From assembly GCF_000235425.2 (NCBI RefSeq), contig NZ_KI912266.1:6230029-6294028 (forward strand): a stretch of DNA of 64,000 nucleotides. Reading direction: 5' to 3'. Every line of letters starts with the position of its first letter. The stretch's first letter is position 1. Both the position numbers and the translations under genes were made by a program. The notes under the pieces were generated by a model. That model had not been told where the DNA came from, ran no database searches, and was given only the letters and a program-made list of their open reading frames with translations. The stretch comes from Pseudofrankia saprophytica. Lineage in GTDB: Bacteria; Actinomycetota; Actinomycetes; Frankiales; Frankiaceae. Below, one piece after another: positions 5,141 to 57,945 of this stretch.

Positions 5141-7366
5141 ATGGCGGGGGATGTTCCGGCCGACGAGCGGGTGTTGATCGCGCCCGGCGCCACCGGGTCT
5201 TCTGGGGCGAGCGGAGCCGGCGTGCGCGCGGCGTCCGACGATCAGCTGGCCACGCCGGCCGCCGGCTCCCTCGCGCAGCCGGCGGGCCAGGGCCCCGCGA
5301 GCCCCGCCGCCGTCGCCACCGGGGAGCGCGTCCTGCACCGCTACGGCCGGGTGCAGGTCCTCGGCACCCTCGGCACTCCCGGCTCCCGCGGCACTCCCGG
5401 TGTCGCCGGTGGGCAGCCGGCGGGCACGGAGCGGTCGACGCCGCGGGCCGCGGCCGTGGCGGACGACCACCACGACCGCGCCGCCGTCGGCTCGACCGAC
5501 GGGTCGGTCGTCGCGACGACGGGCCTCGCCGCCGGGCTGGACCGGACCGAGACCCTCGGCCTCGAGGCGTTCCGGCTGCGGGCCAGCGCCGCCTACCGGC
5601 GGGGCAAACAGGAGCGCCCGCGCGACGGGCAGCTGTGGGACATGGAGCACGCCTGCACCGACATCGCGCCACCCCGGGGGGCTGCCGCGCGTGTCCGCCC
5701 ACCGGCCGCGTCCCGCTCCACCGTCGCCGCCGTCGCCCCCGACGGCACCTCCACCCCGGGCGACGTGGGCGCCGCGCCCCTGAGCTCCTACCTGGAGGGC
5801 AGCGTCGCCGTCGGCCTGGTCCTCGTCGAGGGACCCACCGCCGACCTGCAGTTCACCGCGGCCGAGCGGACGAAGGTCGTCGCCGAGGCGCAGAACGGCC
5901 TGTCCTGGCTCGCCGCCGCCAACCCGGCCGCCGACGTCACCTTCAGCTACGACATCCAGATCGTCCGGCTCAGCCAGGCCGCCGACCCGTCCCAGGACGA
6001 CCTGGAGGCGTACTGGCGCGACCCGACGATGGCCAAGCTCGGCTACCAGGCGAACTTCGACGGCGTCTACGACTACGCCGACGTCGTCCGCGGCCAGCTC
6101 GGCACCCGCTGGGGCTACGTCATCTTCGTCACCAAGTACCCGGTGCGCTACTTCGCCTACGCGGCCATCGGTGGGCCGCGGCTCGTGCTGACGTACGACA
6201 ACGACGGCTGGGGCCCGGACAACCTCGACCGGGTGATCGCCCACGAGTCATGCCACATCTTCGGCGCGGTCGACGAGTACGCGTCGTCGGGCTGCGACTG
6301 CGGCGGCGCCTGGGGCCGGTTCGGTGTGCCCAACGGCAACTGCGACGCCTGCGCCGCCGCCCCTGTCGACTGCCTGATGCGTGGCAACACGTTCAACTTC
6401 TGCCGGTACACCCCGGCACACGTCGGCTGGGGCCGGGGCGCCGCCGGCAACCCGCTCCTCATCCAGGCCAAGGGTCTGGGACAGCTCGGCAACTTCGAGC
6501 TGCTCACCGCCTCGTCGTTCTCGGGCCTCACCCACCGGTGGGAGAACTTCGACCAGGCGGGCTTCCCCTGGGAGGACCCCTTCCAGACCGCCCAGGTGCT
6601 CGGCCGCCTCGACGCCGTGTCGATGGTCCAGAGCACCCTGCAGGCGCCGGGGCCGCTGGAGACCGTCGTGCGGGCCGGTGTCGACCTGCACTTCCTGTGG
6701 CGGGACAGCACCAGCTCGTTCGCCTGGTCGAAGCCCGCCCGGATCGCCACCGGCGCCGCCGGCACGCACTCGCTGGTGCAGAGCCGGTACGGCGCCCGGG
6801 GCAACTTCGAGATGCTCTTCCCGTCGACCGGCGTCGGCCTCATGCACATGTGGCGCAATCATGACGTCTTCGGCTTCCCCTGGAGCAACCCGCGCCAACT
6901 GCTGACCGAGCTCGGCCACGTCGACGCCGTCAGCCTCATCCAGGGCAGCCGGGGCGGCGGCGTCGGCAGCCTGGAGGCCGTCGTCCGGGTGGGCAGCCGG
7001 CTGCTGCACATCTGGCGCGACCAGACCGCCGCGGCCGCCTGGCACGTCACGGTCGCCTTCGCCGACGGCGTCGCCGGCAACCCGGTGTTGATCGAGAGCG
7101 TCTTCGGGACCTCGCGCAACTTCGAGGTCGTCGTCCCGAGCGCGAGCGGCGGCCTGATCCACTACTGGCGGAACAACAGCGCCTTCGGCACTCCGTGGAG
7201 CGGCCCACGCCCGTTCGCGACGAACCTGGGGCGGGTCGACGGGGTGACGATGATCCAGAGCACCTTCCAGGGCCACCTGGAGGTCGTGGCCCGCGTCGGC
7301 GACCGCCTCCACCAGATGTTCCGCGACGCCGCCGGCAACTGGTTCCCCGCCAGCCGCATCGCCTAG
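5141..7366 (+). CDS. zinc metallopeptidase-like protein with C-terminal beta-propeller repeats
   Basis: This 741-residue protein has an unusual architecture. Residues 1-110 are Gly/Ala/Pro-rich, with a short collagen-like GXY stretch (GTPGSRGTPG). A middle domain (about 215-420) contains a zincin-type HExxH site at residues 368-372 (AHESCHIFGAVDEY), followed by a Cys-rich loop (SSGCDCGG, NCDACAAAP) that may form disulphides. Residues about 430-741 form six blade-like repeats of about 50 residues, alternating 'NFELLTAS..GLTHRWEN' and 'LETVVRAG..LHFLWRD' types; these resemble PLL-like or fucose-lectin propellers. No clear signal peptide is seen. The start follows GAGGACGAAGG. Its stop overlaps the stop of the convergent deaminase gene. 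Peptidase activity is inferred from the motif only. Confidence 0.72.
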   Translation: MAGDVPADERVLIAPGATGSSGASGAGVRAASDDQLATPAAGSLAQPAGQGPASPAAVATGERVLHRYGRVQVLGTLGTPGSRGTPGVAGGQPAGTERSTPRAAAVADDHHDRAAVGSTDGSVVATTGLAAGLDRTETLGLEAFRLRASAAYRRGKQERPRDGQLWDMEHACTDIAPPRGAAARVRPPAASRSTVAAVAPDGTSTPGDVGAAPLSSYLEGSVAVGLVLVEGPTADLQFTAAERTKVVAEAQNGLSWLAAANPAADVTFSYDIQIVRLSQAADPSQDDLEAYWRDPTMAKLGYQANFDGVYDYADVVRGQLGTRWGYVIFVTKYPVRYFAYAAIGGPRLVLTYDNDGWGPDNLDRVIAHESCHIFGAVDEYASSGCDCGGAWGRFGVPNGNCDACAAAPVDCLMRGNTFNFCRYTPAHVGWGRGAAGNPLLIQAKGLGQLGNFELLTASSFSGLTHRWENFDQAGFPWEDPFQTAQVLGRLDAVSMVQSTLQAPGPLETVVRAGVDLHFLWRDSTSSFAWSKPARIATGAAGTHSLVQSRYGARGNFEMLFPSTGVGLMHMWRNHDVFGFPWSNPRQLLTELGHVDAVSLIQGSRGGGVGSLEAVVRVGSRLLHIWRDQTAAAAWHVTVAFADGVAGNPVLIESVFGTSRNFEVVVPSASGGLIHYWRNNSAFGTPWSGPRPFATNLGRVDGVTMIQSTFQGHLEVVARVGDRLHQMFRDAAGNWFPASRIA

Positions 7367-9192
7367 CGCTGGCCGGCGGCGGGGCGCTCCCGCGTCCCGC
7401 CGTTGTCCAGCGTGGAGGCGATGGTGTCGAGAAGGCTCTCCAGGTCGGCGAGCGGGGCGCAGGCGGAGCGGGGCCGGGGGCCGGGCAGCGCGGCGAGGAC
7501 CCGCATCTCGGTGACCAGGCGGGTCAGGCCGTCGGTCTCGGCGAACGCCGGGTCGCTGATGCTCGGGCGCAGGGCCGCCTCGTGGGCACGCCAGATCACG
7601 GCCCGGCCGTCGAGGCGGATCCGCTCGCCGCGGGCGCGCCGCACGTCGTCGGCCTTGCGCGGCACCCAGGAGAACAGGTCCGACAGGCGGTGGTGGGAGA
7701 AGCCGGAGAACGGCTCGAACGACACCCGGTCGGTACGCGCGGTCGGCTCGGGGAACAGGTCGATCGCGTCGCGGTGCAGCTCGCCGCCCTTGCTCTTGTG
7801 GTACGGCTCCAGGTAGACGACCCGGGCCAGGCCGGAGGCGATGATGTTGCGGGTGCATTCGTGGCAGGGCAGCGTCGTGCTGTAGAGGGTGCCGCCCTCG
7901 ATCGCGATCCCGCGGCGGGCGGCGGAGGTGATCGCCACCATCTCGGCGTGCGTGGTCCGGCCGTACTCGATGACGTCGAACAGGTCCGCGTCGCGGATGT
8001 TCTCGTCGTTGATGGCCAGTTCGGTGAGCTCCGCGACGGTGCGCTGGCGCAGTTCGGGGGTGAACCAGCCTGCGCGCAGCCGGGCCAGCAGGTCGGCGAG
8101 GATCTGCGCCCGGATGCCGTCGGAGGCGTCCAGGCCGGCCATGAACTCGCGCCCGTCCGGCTGGCTCTCGGTGTGGTAGTAGCCGCCGCCGGCCTTCGGC
8201 ACCTCGTTCGCGCCGACCGCGACGATCTGCTCGTCCACCATGATCGCGGTGCCGACGCGGCGGGCCAGCACGGCCGTGGTGAGCGAGCCCCGGTAGGCCG
8301 CGGCCATGCCCAGCTCGTCCATCGTCAGCGTGTGGAACGGGTGGCTGTGGATGCACTCGACCAGGCGGCGCACGTGCCGGCGGGTCTGCGTCGGGTCGTC
8401 GCAGCGGACGAACAGGTCGCAGCGCTCCAGCGCCGCCGACGACGACAGCCGCAGCCCGCGCCCGACCGGTGCCGAGGTCAGGCTGGTCGCCAGGCCGAAG
8501 TCGCGGTCCACGGCGTGGGTCGCGGCCCGCTCGGCGTCGGTCGCGGCCAGCCCGGCACTGCGCTCGAACAGCTGCGCGAGCATCCTGGCCCGCTCCGGGC
8601 GCGGCGCGTCGCACGCGATGAAGAAGGCGCGCCGGCCGTAGACCTGGCGCAGCGTCTCCACCTCGGCCTTGTGGGTCAGGCTGTCGAGAACGAACGCGCG
8701 CGGGCGGGTGTGGTCGATGCCGTCGCCACCCCGGATCTCGTGGATCTCCCGCACCCCGGCGAGCGCGACCGCGTCCGCCCGGCCCAGCCGCGCCCGCAGC
8801 TGGTCGCCCGCGTCCATCAGCAGCTCACGCCGCGTCGGCTCGTCCGCCGGCCGTGCCACGGCCTTGGACGGACCCGCGAGCCGGAGCTTGCCGGGGGCGA
8901 CGCCGGCGGCACCGGCCAGACCGGCGTCGTCACGGCCGGCGCTGTCGCGGTCCGCGCTGTCACGGTCCGCGCTGTCGCGGTCGGCGTCGTCACGGCCGGG
9001 CGTCAGCCGCGTGAGCAGGGCGTCCAGATCGATCCGGAAGACCTGGTAGTTCGCGGCCGCGAGCGCGGCGTGCAGCTCCTGGAGCACGGGCGCCGTCTCC
9101 GTGCCGACGGTCCGCACGATCCCGAACACCAGCTCCGGCGTACGCAGGTGCTCGGCGAGCCCGATCCGGCACCCACCCTCGTCGTCCGCCAT
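7363..9192 (-). CDS. anti-phage dCTP deaminase (DCD/AvcD family)
   Basis: The 609-residue protein matches the two-domain plan of anti-phage deoxycytidine deaminases. The N-terminal P-loop-kinase-like region opens with ELVFGIVRTVGTE (residues 20-32), where the family carries a degenerate P-loop. The C-terminal deoxycytidylate-deaminase domain has the zinc site H415-A-E417 and P442-C-H-E-C446, followed by the family-typical VVYLEPYHKSKGGELH. Known members deplete dCTP/dCMP pools during phage infection and block phage DNA synthesis. Residues about 66-91 are a repeated acidic insert (RDSAD units) between the first strand-helix units, encoded by short tandem repeats. The ATG follows AAGGAGATC. The gene is monocistronic and ends inside the stop codon of the convergent peptidase gene. 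Confidence 0.87.
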   Translation of the reverse strand: MADDEGGCRIGLAEHLRTPELVFGIVRTVGTETAPVLQELHAALAAANYQVFRIDLDALLTRLTPGRDDADRDSADRDSADRDSAGRDDAGLAGAAGVAPGKLRLAGPSKAVARPADEPTRRELLMDAGDQLRARLGRADAVALAGVREIHEIRGGDGIDHTRPRAFVLDSLTHKAEVETLRQVYGRRAFFIACDAPRPERARMLAQLFERSAGLAATDAERAATHAVDRDFGLATSLTSAPVGRGLRLSSSAALERCDLFVRCDDPTQTRRHVRRLVECIHSHPFHTLTMDELGMAAAYRGSLTTAVLARRVGTAIMVDEQIVAVGANEVPKAGGGYYHTESQPDGREFMAGLDASDGIRAQILADLLARLRAGWFTPELRQRTVAELTELAINDENIRDADLFDVIEYGRTTHAEMVAITSAARRGIAIEGGTLYSTTLPCHECTRNIIASGLARVVYLEPYHKSKGGELHRDAIDLFPEPTARTDRVSFEPFSGFSHHRLSDLFSWVPRKADDVRRARGERIRLDGRAVIWRAHEAALRPSISDPAFAETDGLTRLVTEMRVLAALPGPRPRSACAPLADLESLLDTIASTLDNGGTRERPAAGQR

Positions 9193-9478
9193 GATCTCCT
9201 TGCCGGTTCGGCGTCCCCGTCGGACACCGCGTTCCGTCCACCCTGTCAGCCCACCCTGTCAGCGTCCCCTCGGGTCCCGCAACGCGGTCTCCCCCGGCTC
9301 TCCCGGCTGGCCCCGGGCGGCTCCGGGCTGGTCGGCCACGGCGGCCCGGCCCAGCTGGTTCGTCGTCGAGCTAGCCCTGGCCGGTTGCGGGCGATATCCC
9401 AGGGCATTCCTGTCCGGGGCCGGTGCCCGATGCGTCCGGCTCCACGAACGTGGCAGGTCGCGAGCCTGGGAGGTCGCG

Positions 9479-9835
9479 ATGGAAGTAGAGCGAGCACCGA
9501 TCGAGGTGCTGTTCACGTGCCGGCGCTGCCAGCTGGAGTGGCGGCAGGCCTATGAGGTGGTCCGGTGGACCGGATACGAGGGCGACGTCGTCGAGACGTA
9601 CTTCCGCCGGGGGATACCGGTGCCCTCGCCGAAGCTGGGCCAGCGCTGCCCACGGTGCGCCAGCCTGAACGTGGCCTGGACGGACGCCTCGTTCCTGCCG
9701 CCGCGGCGCGCCACCCGGCCCGTCGAACCGGTCGTGAGCTCCCGCTGGTCCACGCCCGAGCCAAAGCGGGCCCCGCTCCGGTTCTTCACCCGCGCCGCCC
9801 ACCAGCGTGAGCCGCTGACCCGCCGCTTCCCGTAG
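9479..9835 (+). CDS. small zinc-ribbon protein
   Basis: This 118-residue hypothetical protein has two Cys pairs that would form a zinc ribbon: FTCRRCQLEW near the N-terminus and QRCPRCASLNV about 40 residues later. A basic Arg/Pro-rich tail follows (PKRAPLRFFTRAAHQREP). The ATG lies behind GGGAGGTCGCG, which decides this start over the much longer open frame upstream. The function is unknown; a nucleic-acid-binding role would fit. It is divergent from the dCTP deaminase gene, with a 286-bp gap. Confidence 0.75.
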   Translation: MEVERAPIEVLFTCRRCQLEWRQAYEVVRWTGYEGDVVETYFRRGIPVPSPKLGQRCPRCASLNVAWTDASFLPPRRATRPVEPVVSSRWSTPEPKRAPLRFFTRAAHQREPLTRRFP

Positions 9836-10035
9836 CCGCGCGCCCTGAACCCCGGAGACCACGGCCAGGCCGGCCTGGCGACCATCGGACGAGCGACGGG
9901 TAAACGGTGCCCAAACCAGGGCATAAGACCCGTCGGGCCACCCCCGCCCTGGCCAGACCGACGGAGAGGGGCGGGGGCGGGGCGTCGAGGCCCGCGCGGT
10001 GGGACGATAGGACGAAGGGGACGGAGGCGACCAGT

Positions 10036-33496: not shown

Positions 33497-34387
33497 ATGG
33501 ATTTCGACGACGATCGGGTCGACACCTCCCAGCTCGAGGACCAGCGCGGCGGGCGCGGCGCCGGCGGCAAGATCGCGCTGGGTGGCGGCGGCGCCGGCGT
33601 CATCGGCGTGGTCATCTACCTGCTGGTGACGCTCCTCGGCGGCGGTGACGGCACGTCGGCCCCCGTGGGCGGGTCGGGTGGCGGCGGGACCGAGGCCGGC
33701 GCGTCTGCCGCGGCCGACCTGGCGGCCCGCTGCAACGCCTCGGGCGCGATCGACCAGTACGACGACTGCTTCGTACTGAAGGTCTTCAACGAGGTCAACG
33801 AGGTCTGGACCAGCTACTTCCAGCAGCACGGCCAGACCTACACCCGCCCGACGCTGGTCTACTTCGAGCAGGCCGTCTCGACCGGCTGCGGACAGGCCTC
33901 GTCGGAGGTCGGCCCGTTCTACTGCCCGAACGGCCAGCGGGTCTACATCGACCTCGGGTTCCTGAAGCAGCTGCAGGACCAGTACGGCGCCCAGGGCCGC
34001 TACGCGCAGGCCTACATCGTCGCCCACGAGGTCGGCCACCACATCCAGACGCTCACTGGCACCGAGGAACGGCTGCGCCAGGCGCAGCAGGCCGACCCGT
34101 CCCAGGAGAACGCGCTGTCGGTGCAGCTGGAGCTGCAGGCCGACTGCTACGCGGGCGTCTGGAGCACGCTCGCCGACAAGGCCGGCAACGTGACCGTCGG
34201 CCAGTCCGACATCGACGAGGCGCTGAACGCCGCCGAGGCCGTCGGCGACGACCGCATCGAGCAGAAGGCCGGCGTGGACGTCAATCCGGAGACCTGGACC
34301 CACGGCTCCGCCCAGCAGCGCAGCACCTCGTTCAAGACCGGCGCCAGCGGCGCCACCCTCGAGTCCTGCGGGACCGTCCCCCACTGA
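33497..34387 (+). CDS. YpfJ-type neutral zinc metallopeptidase
   Basis: The 296-residue protein has one N-terminal transmembrane segment (AGVIGVVIYLLVTLLGG) and a large outside domain of the putative neutral zinc metallopeptidase family. The zinc site is in YIVAHEVGHHIQTLTG with the downstream Glu in QLELQADCYAG. The family signature FYCPNGQRVYIDLGFL is present. Four Cys may pair outside the cell. The ATG follows GAGAGGCAGG. The stop codon is the first three bases of an 18-bp tandem repeat array. Confidence 0.9.
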   Translation: MDFDDDRVDTSQLEDQRGGRGAGGKIALGGGGAGVIGVVIYLLVTLLGGGDGTSAPVGGSGGGGTEAGASAAADLAARCNASGAIDQYDDCFVLKVFNEVNEVWTSYFQQHGQTYTRPTLVYFEQAVSTGCGQASSEVGPFYCPNGQRVYIDLGFLKQLQDQYGAQGRYAQAYIVAHEVGHHIQTLTGTEERLRQAQQADPSQENALSVQLELQADCYAGVWSTLADKAGNVTVGQSDIDEALNAAEAVGDDRIEQKAGVDVNPETWTHGSAQQRSTSFKTGASGATLESCGTVPH

Positions 34388-34492
34388 CCTTCGGGACGGC
34401 ACCGACCTTCGGGACGCCACCGGTCTTCGGGATGCCACTGACCTTCCGGACGCCACTGACCTTCGGGACGTCACCGGTCTTCGGGACGCCGC
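34385..34492. repeat. six tandem 18-bp repeats spanning the metallopeptidase stop
   Basis: Six consecutive 18-bp units (consensus TGACCTTCGGGACGCCAC) run from the TGA of the metallopeptidase gene to just before the convergent isochorismatase-like gene. Copies differ at 1-4 positions. The 18-bp length keeps frame: in reverse it would read as VPKVSG-type hexapeptides, but the reverse gene ends before it. Confidence 0.85.
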
Positions 34493-41018: not shown

Positions 41019-43577
41019 GTGACGCCGGCGCCGGACGGGCTGGGCCGGGCACGGCCGCTGACCGCCGCGGACCCCGCCCAGGTCGGTCCCTACCGGCTGG
41101 ACGGGCTGCTGGGCCGTGGCGGGATGGGCAGCGTCTACCTTGGCCGCACCTCCGCCGGCCGCAGGGTGGCCGTCAAGGTGGTCAAGGCGGAGTACGCGGC
41201 CGATCCCGGCTACCAGCGGCTGTTCGAGGAGGAGGCCAGGCTCGCGCGCGGCATCGTCCGCTCCTGCACGCCTGAGTTCCTCGACGCCGGCACCCACGAC
41301 GGCCAGCCGTACATCGTCACCGAGTACATCGACGGGCCCACGCTCGAGGAGGCGATCCACCAGAGCGGGCCGTTGGAGCCCGCGGCCCTCGAACGCGTGG
41401 CGCTCGCGGTCGCCACCGCGCTGACCGCGATCCATCGCGCCGGCGTCGTCCATCGCGACCTCAAACCGTCCAACGTCCTGCTGTCCGTCCACGGGCCGCT
41501 CGTCATCGACTTCGGCATCGCGCTCGCCGTGAACAGCTCGACGCTGCGCGGGAAGGACGGATCCGGCACGCCCGCGTTCATGGCACCTGAACAGGTGACC
41601 CGCGACCAGGTGGGGCCGGCGGCCGACATCTTCGCCTGGGGCGGGGTCGTCGTGTTCGCCGCCACCGCCCGCCCGCCTTTCGGGGAGGGTCCGGCCCTCG
41701 CGCAGCTGTACCGGGTGGTCAACGAACAGCCCGACCTCACCGGCGTTCCCGAGCCGCCGCGGTCGGTGGTCGCCTGGGCGATGCGCCGGGACCCGGCCCA
41801 GCGCCCGACCGCGGCCGCGCTGTTCAACCGCCTGGTCAGCTCGCCGTCCGCCGCCGCGTCCGCGCCGACAGAGCCGTCCCAGCACCGCGCCGGCGGATCG
41901 GTGGCCGGCGCGGGTGCCGCGGGCACGGGCAGGCGGCCCGCCGGCACCGGTACGGGTGGGGACACACGGCCGAGCCTGCCTCCGTCCTCGGCGCCGCTCC
42001 CGCCGACAAGGACATGGCCCGGCTCCTCGCCGCCGCGTGATTCCCCGCCGCCGCGTGATCCTCCGCCGCCGCGTGATCCCTCGCCGACGGCGGGCACGCG
42101 GCGTCGCCCTGGGCCGCGCCGGCGCCGGCTGATCGTCCTCGCCGCCGCGGCGGCGACCGCGCTGGCGGTGGGGATCCCGCTGCTGGTGGTACAGCCCGGG
42201 CGCGGCGGCGACGGCGGGCCCGAGGCGGCGCGGCGGGCCTCGGAGACGCTCGCCGCGGCGGCCCAGCAGGCCCAGGACGAGGATCCGGGCCTCGCCCGCA
42301 GGCTCGCGCTCGCCGCCTACCGCGCCGCACCGACGCGGCAGGCACACCTGAGCCTGCTGGCCGCCTACCTGTCGCCTGGCCAGCCAGCCACCACCTTCGC
42401 CGGCCATACAGCGGCCATCGCCGACGTCGCGTTCAGTCCAGACGGCCGGCTGCTCGCCACCACCGGCACGAAGGACCACGTCGCCCACCTGTGGGACACC
42501 AACCGGCGAGGCGAGAACGTCATGTCCCTCGCCACCCTGCAGGGCCACACGGACTGGCTGGGCGACGTGGCGTTCAGCCCGGACGGAAGACTGCTCGCCA
42601 CGGTCAGCGCCGACGGCACCGCCCGGCTGTGGGATACCACCGACCGCGGCATCGGCGTGAAACCGCTGGCCACGTTCACCGGGCACGTGGGCGGCGTCTG
42701 GGACGTGGCGTTCAGCCCGGACGGGAGGCTGCTCGCCACCGGCGGCGTCGACGGCACCGCCCGGCTGTGGGACCCGACCCGCCGTGGCGACAACATCGCG
42801 CCGCTCGCGACCTTCGCCGGCCACACCTCGGTCGTCGGCGAGGTGGCCTTCAGCCCCGACGGCAAGCTGCTCGCCACCGGCAGCGCCGACGGCACCGCCC
42901 GCCTCTGGGACACCTCGATCCGCGCCGTGACCAGTGACCCACGCACCACGTTCGTCGGCCATGCCCAGGGCGTCAACGAACTCGCGTTCAGCCCGAACGG
43001 AAGACTGCTGGCCACAGCGAGCGACGACGCCACCGCGCGCCTCTGGGACACGGTCGGGCGTGGTTCCTCCGTCGCCGCGGTCACCACGTTCACCGGCCAC
43101 GTGAACTCGGCCGGCGACGTGGCGTTCAGCCCCGACGGCAGGCTGCTCGCCACCACCAGCGGCGACGGCACCGCCCGCCTCTGGGAGACGGCGTCGCGCG
43201 GCCCCAGCATCACTCCGCTCGCGAGCCTCACCGGCCACACCGACACGGTCAACGACGTCGCGTTCAGCCCCGACGGCCTGCTGCTGGCCACCTCCGGCAC
43301 CGACGGCACCGCCCGCCTCTGGGACGCCGCCGGTCGCGGCGGCAACGTCACCCCGCTGGCCACGCTGGAAGGCCACACGGGCAAGGTCGACGACGTCCTG
43401 TTCAGCCCCGACGGCTCCCGGCTCGCCACGACCGGCGCCGACCTCACCGCCCGGCTCTGGGATCTCTCCCCCGACCGCATCGCCGCCCGCGCCTGTGCCA
43501 ACCCCGCCAACCAGCTCACCCAGGCGGAGTGGACCCTCCAGGTCAAGAACCTCGCCTACGTCGACCCCTGCCCCTGA
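41019..43577 (+). CDS. transmembrane Ser/Thr protein kinase with eight WD40 repeats
   Basis: This 852-residue kinase has the glycine loop GRGGMGSVYLG, Lys53, HRDLKPSN, DFG and an APE-type loop, all intact. A Pro-rich linker, with three 18-bp DNA repeats at 42028-42081 coding PPPRDP units, leads to a transmembrane helix (about residues 367-387). The outer part carries eight WD40 units of about 43 residues (GHTAAIADVAFSPDG type, 460-850), predicted to form a beta-propeller sensor or docking platform. The signal sensed is unknown. The GTG follows TTGGAGCGG. The nearly identical WD40 DNA repeats could recombine. Confidence 0.93.
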   Translation: MTPAPDGLGRARPLTAADPAQVGPYRLDGLLGRGGMGSVYLGRTSAGRRVAVKVVKAEYAADPGYQRLFEEEARLARGIVRSCTPEFLDAGTHDGQPYIVTEYIDGPTLEEAIHQSGPLEPAALERVALAVATALTAIHRAGVVHRDLKPSNVLLSVHGPLVIDFGIALAVNSSTLRGKDGSGTPAFMAPEQVTRDQVGPAADIFAWGGVVVFAATARPPFGEGPALAQLYRVVNEQPDLTGVPEPPRSVVAWAMRRDPAQRPTAAALFNRLVSSPSAAASAPTEPSQHRAGGSVAGAGAAGTGRRPAGTGTGGDTRPSLPPSSAPLPPTRTWPGSSPPRDSPPPRDPPPPRDPSPTAGTRRRPGPRRRRLIVLAAAAATALAVGIPLLVVQPGRGGDGGPEAARRASETLAAAAQQAQDEDPGLARRLALAAYRAAPTRQAHLSLLAAYLSPGQPATTFAGHTAAIADVAFSPDGRLLATTGTKDHVAHLWDTNRRGENVMSLATLQGHTDWLGDVAFSPDGRLLATVSADGTARLWDTTDRGIGVKPLATFTGHVGGVWDVAFSPDGRLLATGGVDGTARLWDPTRRGDNIAPLATFAGHTSVVGEVAFSPDGKLLATGSADGTARLWDTSIRAVTSDPRTTFVGHAQGVNELAFSPNGRLLATASDDATARLWDTVGRGSSVAAVTTFTGHVNSAGDVAFSPDGRLLATTSGDGTARLWETASRGPSITPLASLTGHTDTVNDVAFSPDGLLLATSGTDGTARLWDAAGRGGNVTPLATLEGHTGKVDDVLFSPDGSRLATTGADLTARLWDLSPDRIAARACANPANQLTQAEWTLQVKNLAYVDPCP

Positions 43578-55049: not shown

Positions 55050-57945
55050 CGAGGCGCACTGGTCGTTCCGGGCGATCCTGACCACCCACCCGGGCACCGC
55101 GCTGACCAGGCTGAACAGCGCCTGCACGATGGCCGGGATCGCCACCGGGATCGGCGCGGGCGAGGGCGGCCGCATCCGCCGCCGGGACCGGGGCCTCGCC
55201 GGGCTCGACGGCGCCGCGGTGGCGGGGCGGCGGGGGCTGGTGGTGCTGCGCACCGCCGAATGGAGCAAGGGCGCGAAGACGCAGGACGCGGTGGAGGCGT
55301 TCGAGCGGGCCGGCGGCATCACCCATTTCCTCGCGGACGAGGACGTGCGGACGTTCGCCGCGCTGCGCCAGCTTCTCGACGGCCGCCACCCCGCGCTGGA
55401 GACCTGGCTGCTCGCCCGCCGCCCGGCGAGCTCCACTCCCCTGTTCACGTCGGCCCTCGACGCCGTCTACCGCGAGCTCGCGCCCGCACCAGGCCACTAC
55501 CCGCCGGTGGTCGGCGCCCCGGCGGCCCAGGTCGCCGCCAATCCGCTCGTCGTGCAGGCCATCCACCCGCCGCGCCGTTCACCGTTCGCCCCGGCGCCAG
55601 CACCAGCGCCGGCGTTGGCCCCGACCAGGCTCGTCCTCACCGCCCTGCCTCCGCCCTCCCCGCGTCCGCCGACCCACTCCGCCGCCCCGCCCCCGATGCC
55701 GGCGCCCGCCGCCGTGACAGCTCCGCCAGTCACGGCGGCTCCACCGGTCACGGCGGCTCCGCCAGTCACGGCGGCTCCGCCAGTCACGGCGGCTCCGCCA
55801 GTCACGGCGGCTCCACCGGTCACGGCGGCTCCACCGGTCACGGCGGCTCCACCGGTCACGAAACTGGAATCGCCGGCGCCGGCGCCAGTTCTCCCCGCAT
55901 CCCAGCCGCTCCGCCTCGCGCCGTCGGCCGCTCCGACTCCGTCGGCCCCGCTGGCGGCGGAGCCGACGGTCCTGATCCCGCCTGTCCCGGCGTTGCCCCC
56001 CACGCCCCCCACACCCGCGCCGCCCCCCACGCCCGCGCCGCCCTCGGCGCGTTCGGAGCCGCCAACCGCCGTGCTCGCTCCCGCGCCGACGCCCACGGTG
56101 GGCGCGGTGACCGGGCCGGCGGCGGAGCCGGCCGGCTGGCCACGGGCCGCGCGGCCGGCCTCGCCAAGGACGCCCTGGGCGGCCGGCCCCGACGAGGACG
56201 TCCACGACGCGGCCTCCTTGCCCCTGCTGGTGCCGGTGTTCGTCCCCGGCGAGCCGGCACGTTCCTCGTCGGCTCCGCCACCGCCCGCGACAGCGGAACC
56301 GGCCCCCGACGCGCCGCTGCTGGTACCGGTGGCGCTGCCGAGGATGCCCGGCGCGGCGGCCCATCCGGGCGACGCCGATCCACTGCCGGTCCCTCTGTCT
56401 CCGCCTCCGCTGGAGACTCCTCCGCCCGCGCCGAAGGCTCCTCAGCCCCCGGCGGAAATCGTGCGGCCCGCGACGGAAGCCGCTCAGCCTCCCGCCGTCG
56501 TCGAACCGGCCGGGTTCCAGGACGGGGTGGCCCGGCTCGTCCCCGTCGCGCTGCCGCTGGCCACCGGCGGCAACGGATCCCGGGGCCAGGCGGTACCAGC
56601 CGAGCGGCCAGCGGCCGCCGGCGGCAACGGGTCCGCGGGCCACGTCGAACCACCCCCACCTGAGCGGGGCGTCGCCAGGCTCGTACCGGTCGCGGGCCCG
56701 GCGGGGTACCTACCGGTGGCGCCGGTCAGGCCAGCGGCGTCCGAGGCGCCCCACCTGGCCCCTGCTTGGCCAAGCCTCCCGCAATCCCAGCGGACCCCGC
56801 TGGTCGTACCCGCGCCGACGGCCGGCGGCAACGGGTCGGCCGATCCCACCGGGTGGTTGGGGCACGCGGATCCGACGGCGACCGGTGCGGGGTCCGCGAA
56901 CGGTGTGCCTCCCGGCACCGCGGACGCCGGCGGCGCCGGCCCTGGTGCGGCTGGAGCTGGGGCTGGGGGCGAGGTTGGGGCTGAGGGCGACGACGAGGTC
57001 GCGGGCGAGGAGCCGGGCGAGCTGGTGGCGGTCGGGACGGCGGCGGGGACCGGGGCGGCGGTGGAGCTCCGGTTGGCGGCGCTGCGCCGGCACGCGGTGA
57101 TCTTCGCCGGGTCCGGCTCGGGGAAGACGGTGCTGGTGCGCCGGCTGGTCGAGGAGTGCGCGCTGCGCGGCGTCTCGTCGATCGTGCTGGACCCAACGGG
57201 TGAGCTGGCGCGCCTCGGCGAGGCCTGGCCGGCGCCGCCGCGGCACGGGTGGGGTCGCGGCGACGCCGAACTGGCCCGCGAGTACCTGGCGGCCACCGAC
57301 GTCGTCGTGTGGACGCCGAACCGTGACGATGGCCGGCCGCTGCGCCTGACCGCGGGTGACGACGGCCCGGCGACCGATCCGGGCACGCTGCTCGCCCCGG
57401 CGCTGGGACGCCGTGCCCGGGTGTCGGTGGTCAGCCTGGTGGGGCTGGAGACGGACGAGGAGCGGCAGGCCTTCGTCGGCGAGCTGCAGCGGGCGCTGCT
57501 CGCCTGGGCCGGCAGACGCTCGGCGGCTGGCCGGCCGCTCGCGGGCCTGCTCGTGCTCGACGAGGCGCAGACGTTCGCGCCGGCCGGGCTGACGACGCCA
57601 ACCACGGACAGCACGATCGCGTTGCTCGACCAGGCCGGCGATCACGGGCTGGGCCTGGTGCTCGCGACCCAGTCCCCGAAGGGGCTGGACCCAAGGGTCT
57701 CGGCGGCCGCGGCCACGCACTTCCTCGGCAGGCTGAACGCTCCAGCGCAGATCGACGCGGCCCGCGCGCTGGCGACGGCGCTCGGCGGCGAGGCGCCGGA
57801 GATCGGCCGTCTCGGCGTCGGCGAGTTCTACGCCGCCAGCGCCGGCCTCCCTGTCCAGCGGGTGAGCACCCCGCTCTGCCTCACCCAACATCCCGGCTGG
57901 CCGCTGCCCCCCGCCGACATCCTGGCCCGCGCCCGCCGCCACTGA
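54550..57945 (+). CDS. large P-loop ATPase, C-terminal part with HerA/FtsK-like ATPase domain
   Basis: The frame is open from an ATG at 54550, but real coding probably begins near 54,715 (PISVGGAILVNDAAQEQEF). It encodes an alpha/beta middle domain (about 54,720-55,500), a 1,400-bp Pro/Ala/Gly-rich linker including eight PPVTAA repeats, and a HerA/VirB4-like ATPase: Walker A FAGSGSGKTVLV at about 57,103, Walker B LLVLDEAQTFAP at about 57,545 and the motif LATQSPKGLDP. Such motors pump or remodel DNA, or act in conflict systems. It continues the frame of the upstream ATPase after a one-base shift. Confidence 0.78.
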   Translation: MPASPRRPTPSCAPSTTSPPRTPRPSTPRPRTRPRRPSALRPRPGARPAGARPAGGAPISVGGAILVNDAAQEQEFDLDSPAGRRLVVGFAELDVAWARLRAGAPGLEALADHDEDEAVPDLLAAGLDAWIAELGPAGRVFSRDARPSAKPALHARLRRVLDETTGDEAHWSFRAILTTHPGTALTRLNSACTMAGIATGIGAGEGGRIRRRDRGLAGLDGAAVAGRRGLVVLRTAEWSKGAKTQDAVEAFERAGGITHFLADEDVRTFAALRQLLDGRHPALETWLLARRPASSTPLFTSALDAVYRELAPAPGHYPPVVGAPAAQVAANPLVVQAIHPPRRSPFAPAPAPAPALAPTRLVLTALPPPSPRPPTHSAAPPPMPAPAAVTAPPVTAAPPVTAAPPVTAAPPVTAAPPVTAAPPVTAAPPVTAAPPVTKLESPAPAPVLPASQPLRLAPSAAPTPSAPLAAEPTVLIPPVPALPPTPPTPAPPPTPAPPSARSEPPTAVLAPAPTPTVGAVTGPAAEPAGWPRAARPASPRTPWAAGPDEDVHDAASLPLLVPVFVPGEPARSSSAPPPPATAEPAPDAPLLVPVALPRMPGAAAHPGDADPLPVPLSPPPLETPPPAPKAPQPPAEIVRPATEAAQPPAVVEPAGFQDGVARLVPVALPLATGGNGSRGQAVPAERPAAAGGNGSAGHVEPPPPERGVARLVPVAGPAGYLPVAPVRPAASEAPHLAPAWPSLPQSQRTPLVVPAPTAGGNGSADPTGWLGHADPTATGAGSANGVPPGTADAGGAGPGAAGAGAGGEVGAEGDDEVAGEEPGELVAVGTAAGTGAAVELRLAALRRHAVIFAGSGSGKTVLVRRLVEECALRGVSSIVLDPTGELARLGEAWPAPPRHGWGRGDAELAREYLAATDVVVWTPNRDDGRPLRLTAGDDGPATDPGTLLAPALGRRARVSVVSLVGLETDEERQAFVGELQRALLAWAGRRSAAGRPLAGLLVLDEAQTFAPAGLTTPTTDSTIALLDQAGDHGLGLVLATQSPKGLDPRVSAAAATHFLGRLNAPAQIDAARALATALGGEAPEIGRLGVGEFYAASAGLPVQRVSTPLCLTQHPGWPLPPADILARARRH
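54660..54725 (+). other. apparent +1 frameshift site in G/C-rich repeat
   Basis: The coding frame changes by one base in a tract holding G5 (54681-54685), two copies of GGCGCGCCCGGC and two G4 runs. One extra base would restore a continuous 1530-codon frame. This could be a sequencing error in a homopolymer, a real mutation or programmed slippage. Confidence 0.7.
55720..55863 (+). repeat. eight tandem 18-bp coding repeats
   Basis: The unit GCTCCGCCAGTCACGGCG (with A/G and T/C swaps) is repeated eight times and encodes A-PPVTA hexapeptides in the disordered linker. Copy number is likely to vary between strains. Confidence 0.9.

Follow-up and report, generated by a model that had tools for sequence, protein, structure and literature searches.

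The DNA analysed here, called the window below, is a stretch of 64,000 nucleotides (nt) from Pseudofrankia saprophytica (contig NZ_KI912266.1, positions 6,230,029 to 6,294,028). On its minus strand lies a gene of the anti-phage deaminase type, whose product is predicted to act on deoxycytidine tri- and monophosphate (dCTP and dCMP). The open reading frame (ORF) begins with an ATG at 9192, with AAGGAG three bases ahead of it, and the gene and its domains are laid out as follows.

7363..9192, minus strand: anti-phage-type dCTP/dCMP deaminase gene (609 amino acids; PADLOC dCTPase, PF00383 and NF041025 matches)
8347..9132, minus strand: adenylate-kinase-like N-terminal domain, residues 21-282 (AlphaFold2 model, 3lw7_A match, family alignment)
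7657..8334, minus strand: C-terminal zinc deaminase domain, residues 287-512, with H415-A-E417 and P442-C-H-E-C446 (alignments, model)

The deaminase is a divergent actinobacterial member of the known anti-phage dCTP deaminase family. The PADLOC dCTPase profile (PDLC02373), for which no curated cut-off is given, matches residues 14-519 with 383 bits (E 8.2e-115), and it also matches all 12 of the family members that were aligned. The NCBIfam model for anti-phage dCTP deaminases, NF041025, gives 300.1 bits in an alignment that spans 431 of its 437 positions, and a Pfam scan returned deaminase models only (PF00383). An earlier note on this DNA had called the gene, assigned its product to the DCD/AvcD type and pointed to a tail segment, VVYLEPYHKSKGGELH: the segment is present in the translation, and the gene call and family assignment are borne out by the PADLOC score, by the fusion of a kinase-like to a deaminase domain and by relatives on plasmids. 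The closest named relatives are from Pseudofrankia (88-90% identity in the best segment), followed by records named Frankia (81-82%). Among the literature matches listed, no title concerned this deaminase gene in Frankia or Pseudofrankia.

The model shows a predicted two-domain architecture, with a kinase-like N-terminal domain fused to a zinc deaminase domain. It was built with AlphaFold2 from 21 sequences and has a mean predicted local distance difference test score (pLDDT) of 78.6 and a predicted template modelling score (pTM) of 0.77. In structural alignments with VIA-align, residues 21-282 superpose on 3lw7_A, an AdkA-like adenylate kinase (Z 16.0, root-mean-square deviation 2.5, 167 aligned); the matches to residues 287-512 are dCMP deaminases (best Z 17.6, root-mean-square deviation 3.5, 136 aligned). 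A profile of the 12 aligned family members also finds 3lw7 and 3h0k (E ~1e-5). The deaminase fold and zinc motif are shared with the dCMP deaminases of human (2w4l) and T4 (1vq2) and with the dCMP/dCTP deaminase of PBCV-1 (7fh4), but these match residues ~287-512 only, and the kinase-like domain (21-282) is extra. That domain has the fold of the Sulfolobus AdkA-like 3lw7 but is 17% identical to it, lacks the P-loop lysine and carries an inserted 47-residue low-confidence loop. Neither the sequence searches nor the structure-search rows shown contained a solved chain that spans the two domains. The zinc motifs named in the earlier note are invariant in alignments of both 12 and 21 family members (H415, E417, P442, C443, H444, C446) except at E445, which varies. 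The P-loop is degenerate (GIVRTVGTET, without the Walker A lysine). A canonical GxxxxGK[ST] is missing from the first 120 residues of every sequence in both alignments, three members of the 21-sequence alignment being largely without the P-loop stretch. A few family members, e.g., L067 and L102, have a lysine near the site.

The first papers on AvcD and DCD are reportedly from 2022, and the family presumably acts by depriving phages of one of the nucleotides needed for DNA. AvcD defends against phage and deaminates dCTP and dCMP; it is inhibited by an RNA, AvcI, which adjoins avcD in Vibrio, and is freed when phage shuts off transcription (PMC10511110, PMC12409362). In the first of these reports, AvcI measures ~280 nt on northern blots (PMC10511110). 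The enzyme studied here resembles AvcD (AvcID; Vibrio and enterotoxigenic Escherichia coli, ETEC) in its zinc deaminase domain with HAE and PCxxC, its VVYxEPYxKS-like segment and its N-terminal region, a likeness judged through plasmid-borne relatives annotated as anti-phage dCTP deaminase and not through AvcD itself. It differs in being 27-33% identical to the plasmid-borne relatives listed, in being chromosomal and genus-wide, and in showing no evidence for AvcI.

The wider family occurs on plasmids and in viral contigs. The deaminase has matches in 57 records of the plasmid collection, 25 of them over at least 80% of the query; 23 of these long matches are from Klebsiella with the same 28.1% identity, and many are annotated "anti-phage dCTP deaminase". 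Matches were found in 987 phage records, none over at least 80% of the query. Among the 20 phage matches listed, two are family-like (65-70% covered) and 18 are confined to residues 271-504 and mostly annotated as dCMP deaminase. Long matches are present in 17 of the 80 viral-contig loci that were kept. A Streptomyces relative (L007, 3224-4822, minus strand), 49% identical to the deaminase in the best segment, lies ~0.7 kb from a GajA-type gene (5542-7401, plus strand; PADLOC 678.6 bits); this locus is likely a defence island, and the nearby GajA fits a role in defence. On a small E. coli plasmid (L067, 124-306), the annotation places a 60-codon "hypothetical protein" 54 bp ahead of an anti-phage dCTP deaminase, a position that one might expect an AvcI-type RNA to occupy; a mis-annotation is possible there.

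All eight genomes of the genus carry the deaminase, at 86-99% identity over 549 ungapped columns, with the zinc site intact and frames of 568-623 amino acids open in each; the ratio of non-synonymous to synonymous substitution (dN/dS) is 0.04-0.26 in 28 pairs, i.e., the gene is under purifying selection. Among 27 further genomes from the taxonomic family, none has a full-length copy (one weak match, G029, covers residues 28-97), and only 2 of 385 class genomes outside the genus have a comparable match: G044 (positions 1-437) and G068 (41-437, where a contig begins), the latter with CCHLC where others have PCHxC. In each of the eight genus genomes the same small gene diverges from the deaminase, and the outer neighbours are rearranged.

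9479..9835, plus strand: small C4 zinc-ribbon protein gene, 118 amino acids (no Pfam or PADLOC match; zinc ribbon called by eye from C-x2-C pairs)

Presence throughout the genus, the shared neighbour, purifying selection and the scarcity of matches elsewhere make the deaminase look resident rather than like a mobile defence gene, and it is probably inherited vertically in the genus. Its GC content at third codon positions (GC3) is 0.964, compared with 0.87-0.98 for the neighbours (the NIF3 neighbour left out). FastTree trees of the deaminase and the zinc ribbon share the group G001/G002/G003 and, loosely, the group of P. saprophytica, G005 and G006; G007 is placed differently, with the P. saprophytica group in the deaminase tree (support 0.921) and with the G001 group in the zinc-ribbon tree (0.551). 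In a second genus, g2, the zinc-ribbon gene is present in all five genomes (36-43% identity) and the deaminase in none, which means that either the ancestor of the genus studied here gained the deaminase or g2 lost it; no further neighbour is clearly shared by the g2 stretches, and no empty site was found in them. The zinc-ribbon protein ends in TRRFP, kept in the eight genus genomes, and has its distant relative in g2. As a general partner of the deaminase family the zinc ribbon was considered and set aside: none was seen by eye in the ORF lists beside the Rhodococcus, Streptomyces and G044 relatives, where no dedicated search was made except at G044, which gave no match. On the other side of the deaminase, a plus-strand gene at 5141-7366 overlaps its 3' end by 4 bp and encodes a 741-amino-acid protein without a Pfam match, in which a motif of the HExxH type (HESCH) and recurring segments that contain Trp can be seen by eye; the gene adjoins the deaminase in G004, G005 and G006 and was not found in the stretches fetched from the other four siblings.

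Two further features lie within the N-terminal domain.

8854..8994, minus strand: low-confidence loop, residues 67-113, a length-variable insertion point (pLDDT <50)
8921..8999, minus strand: imperfect 15-bp tandem repeat encoding five RDSAD-like units (found only here in the P. saprophytica genome)

Residues 67-91 consist of five 5-residue units (RDDAD, RDSAD, RDSAD, RDSAG and RDDAG), and the model draws a low-confidence helix at residues 68-78 inside the stretch of pLDDT <50. The pattern GCSGACCGYGACAGC occurs three times in the 9.98-Mb, two-contig genome, each time within the deaminase gene, and its backward control does not occur. What the earlier note had called an acidic repeat insert does consist of five RDSAD-like units from a short DNA repeat, but the word acidic is only partly apt: the 26-residue repeat stretch has 10 Asp and 5 Arg, and in the 56-residue loop acidic and basic residues are equal in number, with 10 of each. 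Measured between the landmarks D[AT]LL and DEP[TA]R, the loop is 56 residues long here and 11, 11, 11, 16, 33, 80 and 7 residues long in the seven sibling species. G005 and G006 have other fillers rich in Ala, Gly and Pro, and the remaining five siblings have 7-16 residues. The RDSAD unit itself is confined to P. saprophytica and absent from the seven siblings, which takes away the weight that had been placed on it. A slippage switch in the repeat was likewise considered and rejected: loop length varies between species, always in frame, and only one of the eight species has the unit. The repeat is read here as probably a tolerated, expansion-prone loop rather than a conserved functional insert.

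Upstream of the gene, where the earlier note had suggested that an equivalent of AvcI could lie, are two more features.

9193..9478: intergenic region, 286 bp, between the divergent deaminase and zinc-ribbon genes
9238..9263, minus strand: doubled 13-bp unit GCTGACAGGGTGG (one copy of it corresponds to the block conserved ahead of the deaminase, with an extended -10-like TGACAGGGT)

Both the length of the gap and the exactness of the 13-bp tandem repeat are as that note had given them. The doubled unit is one of several tandem duplications in the window, which has six exact ones of 10-30 bp compared with a mean of 0.375 and a maximum of 3 in 40 second-order Markov shuffles, an excess over chance. 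Longer-period tandem repeats were also seen at 42418-43462 (138-bp period, a long array whose consensus resembles WD40-type units by eye) and at 34381-34490 and 55747-55843 (18-bp period). A full AvcID type III toxin-antitoxin pair, in which an AvcI-like RNA made from 9193-9478 keeps the deaminase inactive, would fit an enzyme homologous to the AvcD family, the position of AvcI beside avcD in Vibrio and a gap about as long as AvcI (286 bp and ~280 nt), but the gap itself argues against it. Folded as RNA, the 286 nt have a z-score of 0.16, with 107 of 200 shuffles equally or more stable, and four sub-stretches give z-scores of -0.25 to -1.60. Gap length varies from 228 to 351 bp across the eight species (in G005 it was measured using the conserved zinc-ribbon start), and Rfam at gathering thresholds has no match in the window. 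Conservation was measured as ungapped identity in 8 of 28 possible genome pairs and set against identity at four-fold sites: 0.82 vs 0.87 (P. saprophytica and G005), 0.67 vs 0.85 (P. saprophytica and G006), 0.66 vs 0.91 (G005 and G006), 0.89 vs 0.89 (G001 and G003), 0.62 vs 0.83 (G001 and G002), 0.48 vs 0.68 (P. saprophytica and G004), 0.51 vs 0.69 (P. saprophytica and G001) and 0.56 vs 0.64 (P. saprophytica and G007). The gap is thus below four-fold sites in seven pairs and equal to them in one (0.89), and in the three pairs between sub-groups its identity is within 0.07 of that of shuffled sequence. As a whole, it shows no constraint beyond that of four-fold sites.

The exception to this weak conservation is a block, GCTG[AG][CA]A[GC]GG[TC]G, found 40-126 bp before the ATG in seven of the eight genomes. 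G007 is without it, and only P. saprophytica and G005 have it doubled. The pattern was composed after the alignment had been viewed; in 2,000 Markov shuffles of 360-bp upstream pieces it occurs in a mean of 0.013 of eight genomes (maximum 1), and in three coding stretches in none of the eight. We infer that TGACAGGGT within it may be an extended -10-like promoter element. A sigma-70 consensus scan of 7300-9900 found no promoter, so this reading draws on conservation and resemblance only, and there was no regulon signal for the element (CGCTGACAGGGT occurs four times in the P. saprophytica genome and its backward control twice). If the element is the promoter, the leader would measure ~20-110 nt and could not accommodate an AvcI of ~280 nt. 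Folding, conservation and length all leave the proposed AvcI equivalent unsupported, and we consider a full AvcID pair at this locus very unlikely.

The reading that we favour, and hold to be likely, is that of an AvcD/DCD-type deaminase of deoxycytidine nucleotides, built of two domains and acting against phage. Several observations weigh against it. The NF041025 score is below the model's cut-off of 400 bits, which none of the 393 sampled genomes of the class reaches. When nine relatives were scanned, the Streptomyces copy (321.3 bits) and the Rhodococcus copy (363.7 bits; annotated "hypothetical protein") also fell under it; the remaining seven, five of them on proteobacterial plasmids and two on viral contigs, passed with 424-504 bits. 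Since the deaminase and the two actinobacterial relatives all lie under the cut-off, the deaminase belongs to a divergent branch, one that is under-annotated because the three actinobacterial members scanned all score too low for the NCBI equivalog model. Residues ~331-410 of the deaminase domain are modelled at low confidence. No kinase is among the 50 rows that Foldseek listed, the top ones being single-domain dCMP deaminases that resemble the C-terminal domain, so the kinase match depends on VIA-align and the profile search. The earlier note had set its reading against one of a housekeeping dCMP deaminase without the kinase-like domain, and the structural comparison divides between them: the kinase-like domain is present, and the top Foldseek matches are dCMP deaminases. 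The degenerate P-loop makes the role of the N-terminal domain uncertain. The 10 neighbouring ORFs include no convincing defence gene (two marginal matches, of 17.3 and 18 bits, are to a coiled-coil protein). Genus-wide fixation is unusual for a defence gene; of all the observations it is the hardest to reconcile with defence, and it leaves room for a resident role.

Such a role could be metabolic: a genus-specific deaminase of deoxycytidine nucleotides might serve pyrimidine balance or the supply of deoxythymidine triphosphate instead of defence. Its presence in all eight genomes beside the same neighbour, the purifying selection, a GC3 like that of the neighbours and the lack of a convincing defence gene nearby are what such an enzyme would lead one to expect. 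But a housekeeping Dcd (TIGR02274) scores above its cut-off in all eight genomes, so that a replacement metabolic role is not needed, and the absence of full-length copies from the rest of the taxonomic family, the relatives on plasmids and viral contigs and the Streptomyces relative near GajA all speak against this explanation, which we regard as unlikely. The missing P-loop lysine and the NF041025 score could also suggest a degenerate former defence gene, now an inactive remnant. This we give next to no probability: the dN/dS values, the intact zinc site and the open frames argue against decay, and a canonical P-loop near the start is foreign to both family alignments.

For the deaminase as an anti-phage enzyme, we infer the substrate, the trigger and the effect on phage; AvcD-type chemistry is, by analogy, very likely shared by the predicted enzyme. 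The C-terminal zinc domain would most likely convert dCTP and dCMP to the corresponding deoxyuridine nucleotides (dUTP and dUMP), and the N-terminal kinase-like domain, without its catalytic lysine, would most likely hold the enzyme idle or sense infection. Upon phage infection the deaminase would drain the deoxycytidine nucleotide pool, and phage DNA synthesis would stall. The gene would be a chromosomal one beside the zinc-ribbon gene, probably vertically inherited, with transcription most likely starting ~20-110 bases before the ATG at the conserved extended -10-like element and with the RDSAD repeat as a presumed lineage-specific filler in an exposed loop. With no RNA antitoxin evident, the kinase-like domain becomes the first candidate for control. 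One could go further and propose a deoxycytidine-depleting deaminase that resides permanently in the genus without an RNA antitoxin and is controlled by a nucleotide-sensing pseudo-kinase domain or by the divergent zinc-ribbon protein, but we consider this more specific proposal quite doubtful. The interest of the locus is in the fixation of the deaminase in the genus and in its control; the repeat and the upstream gap are lineage-specific or unsupported. The deaminase is a case of an anti-phage-type enzyme fixed in a genus and not carried on mobile islands, and, should it prove to act without an AvcI-like RNA, it would help explain how such enzymes stay harmless in healthy cells.

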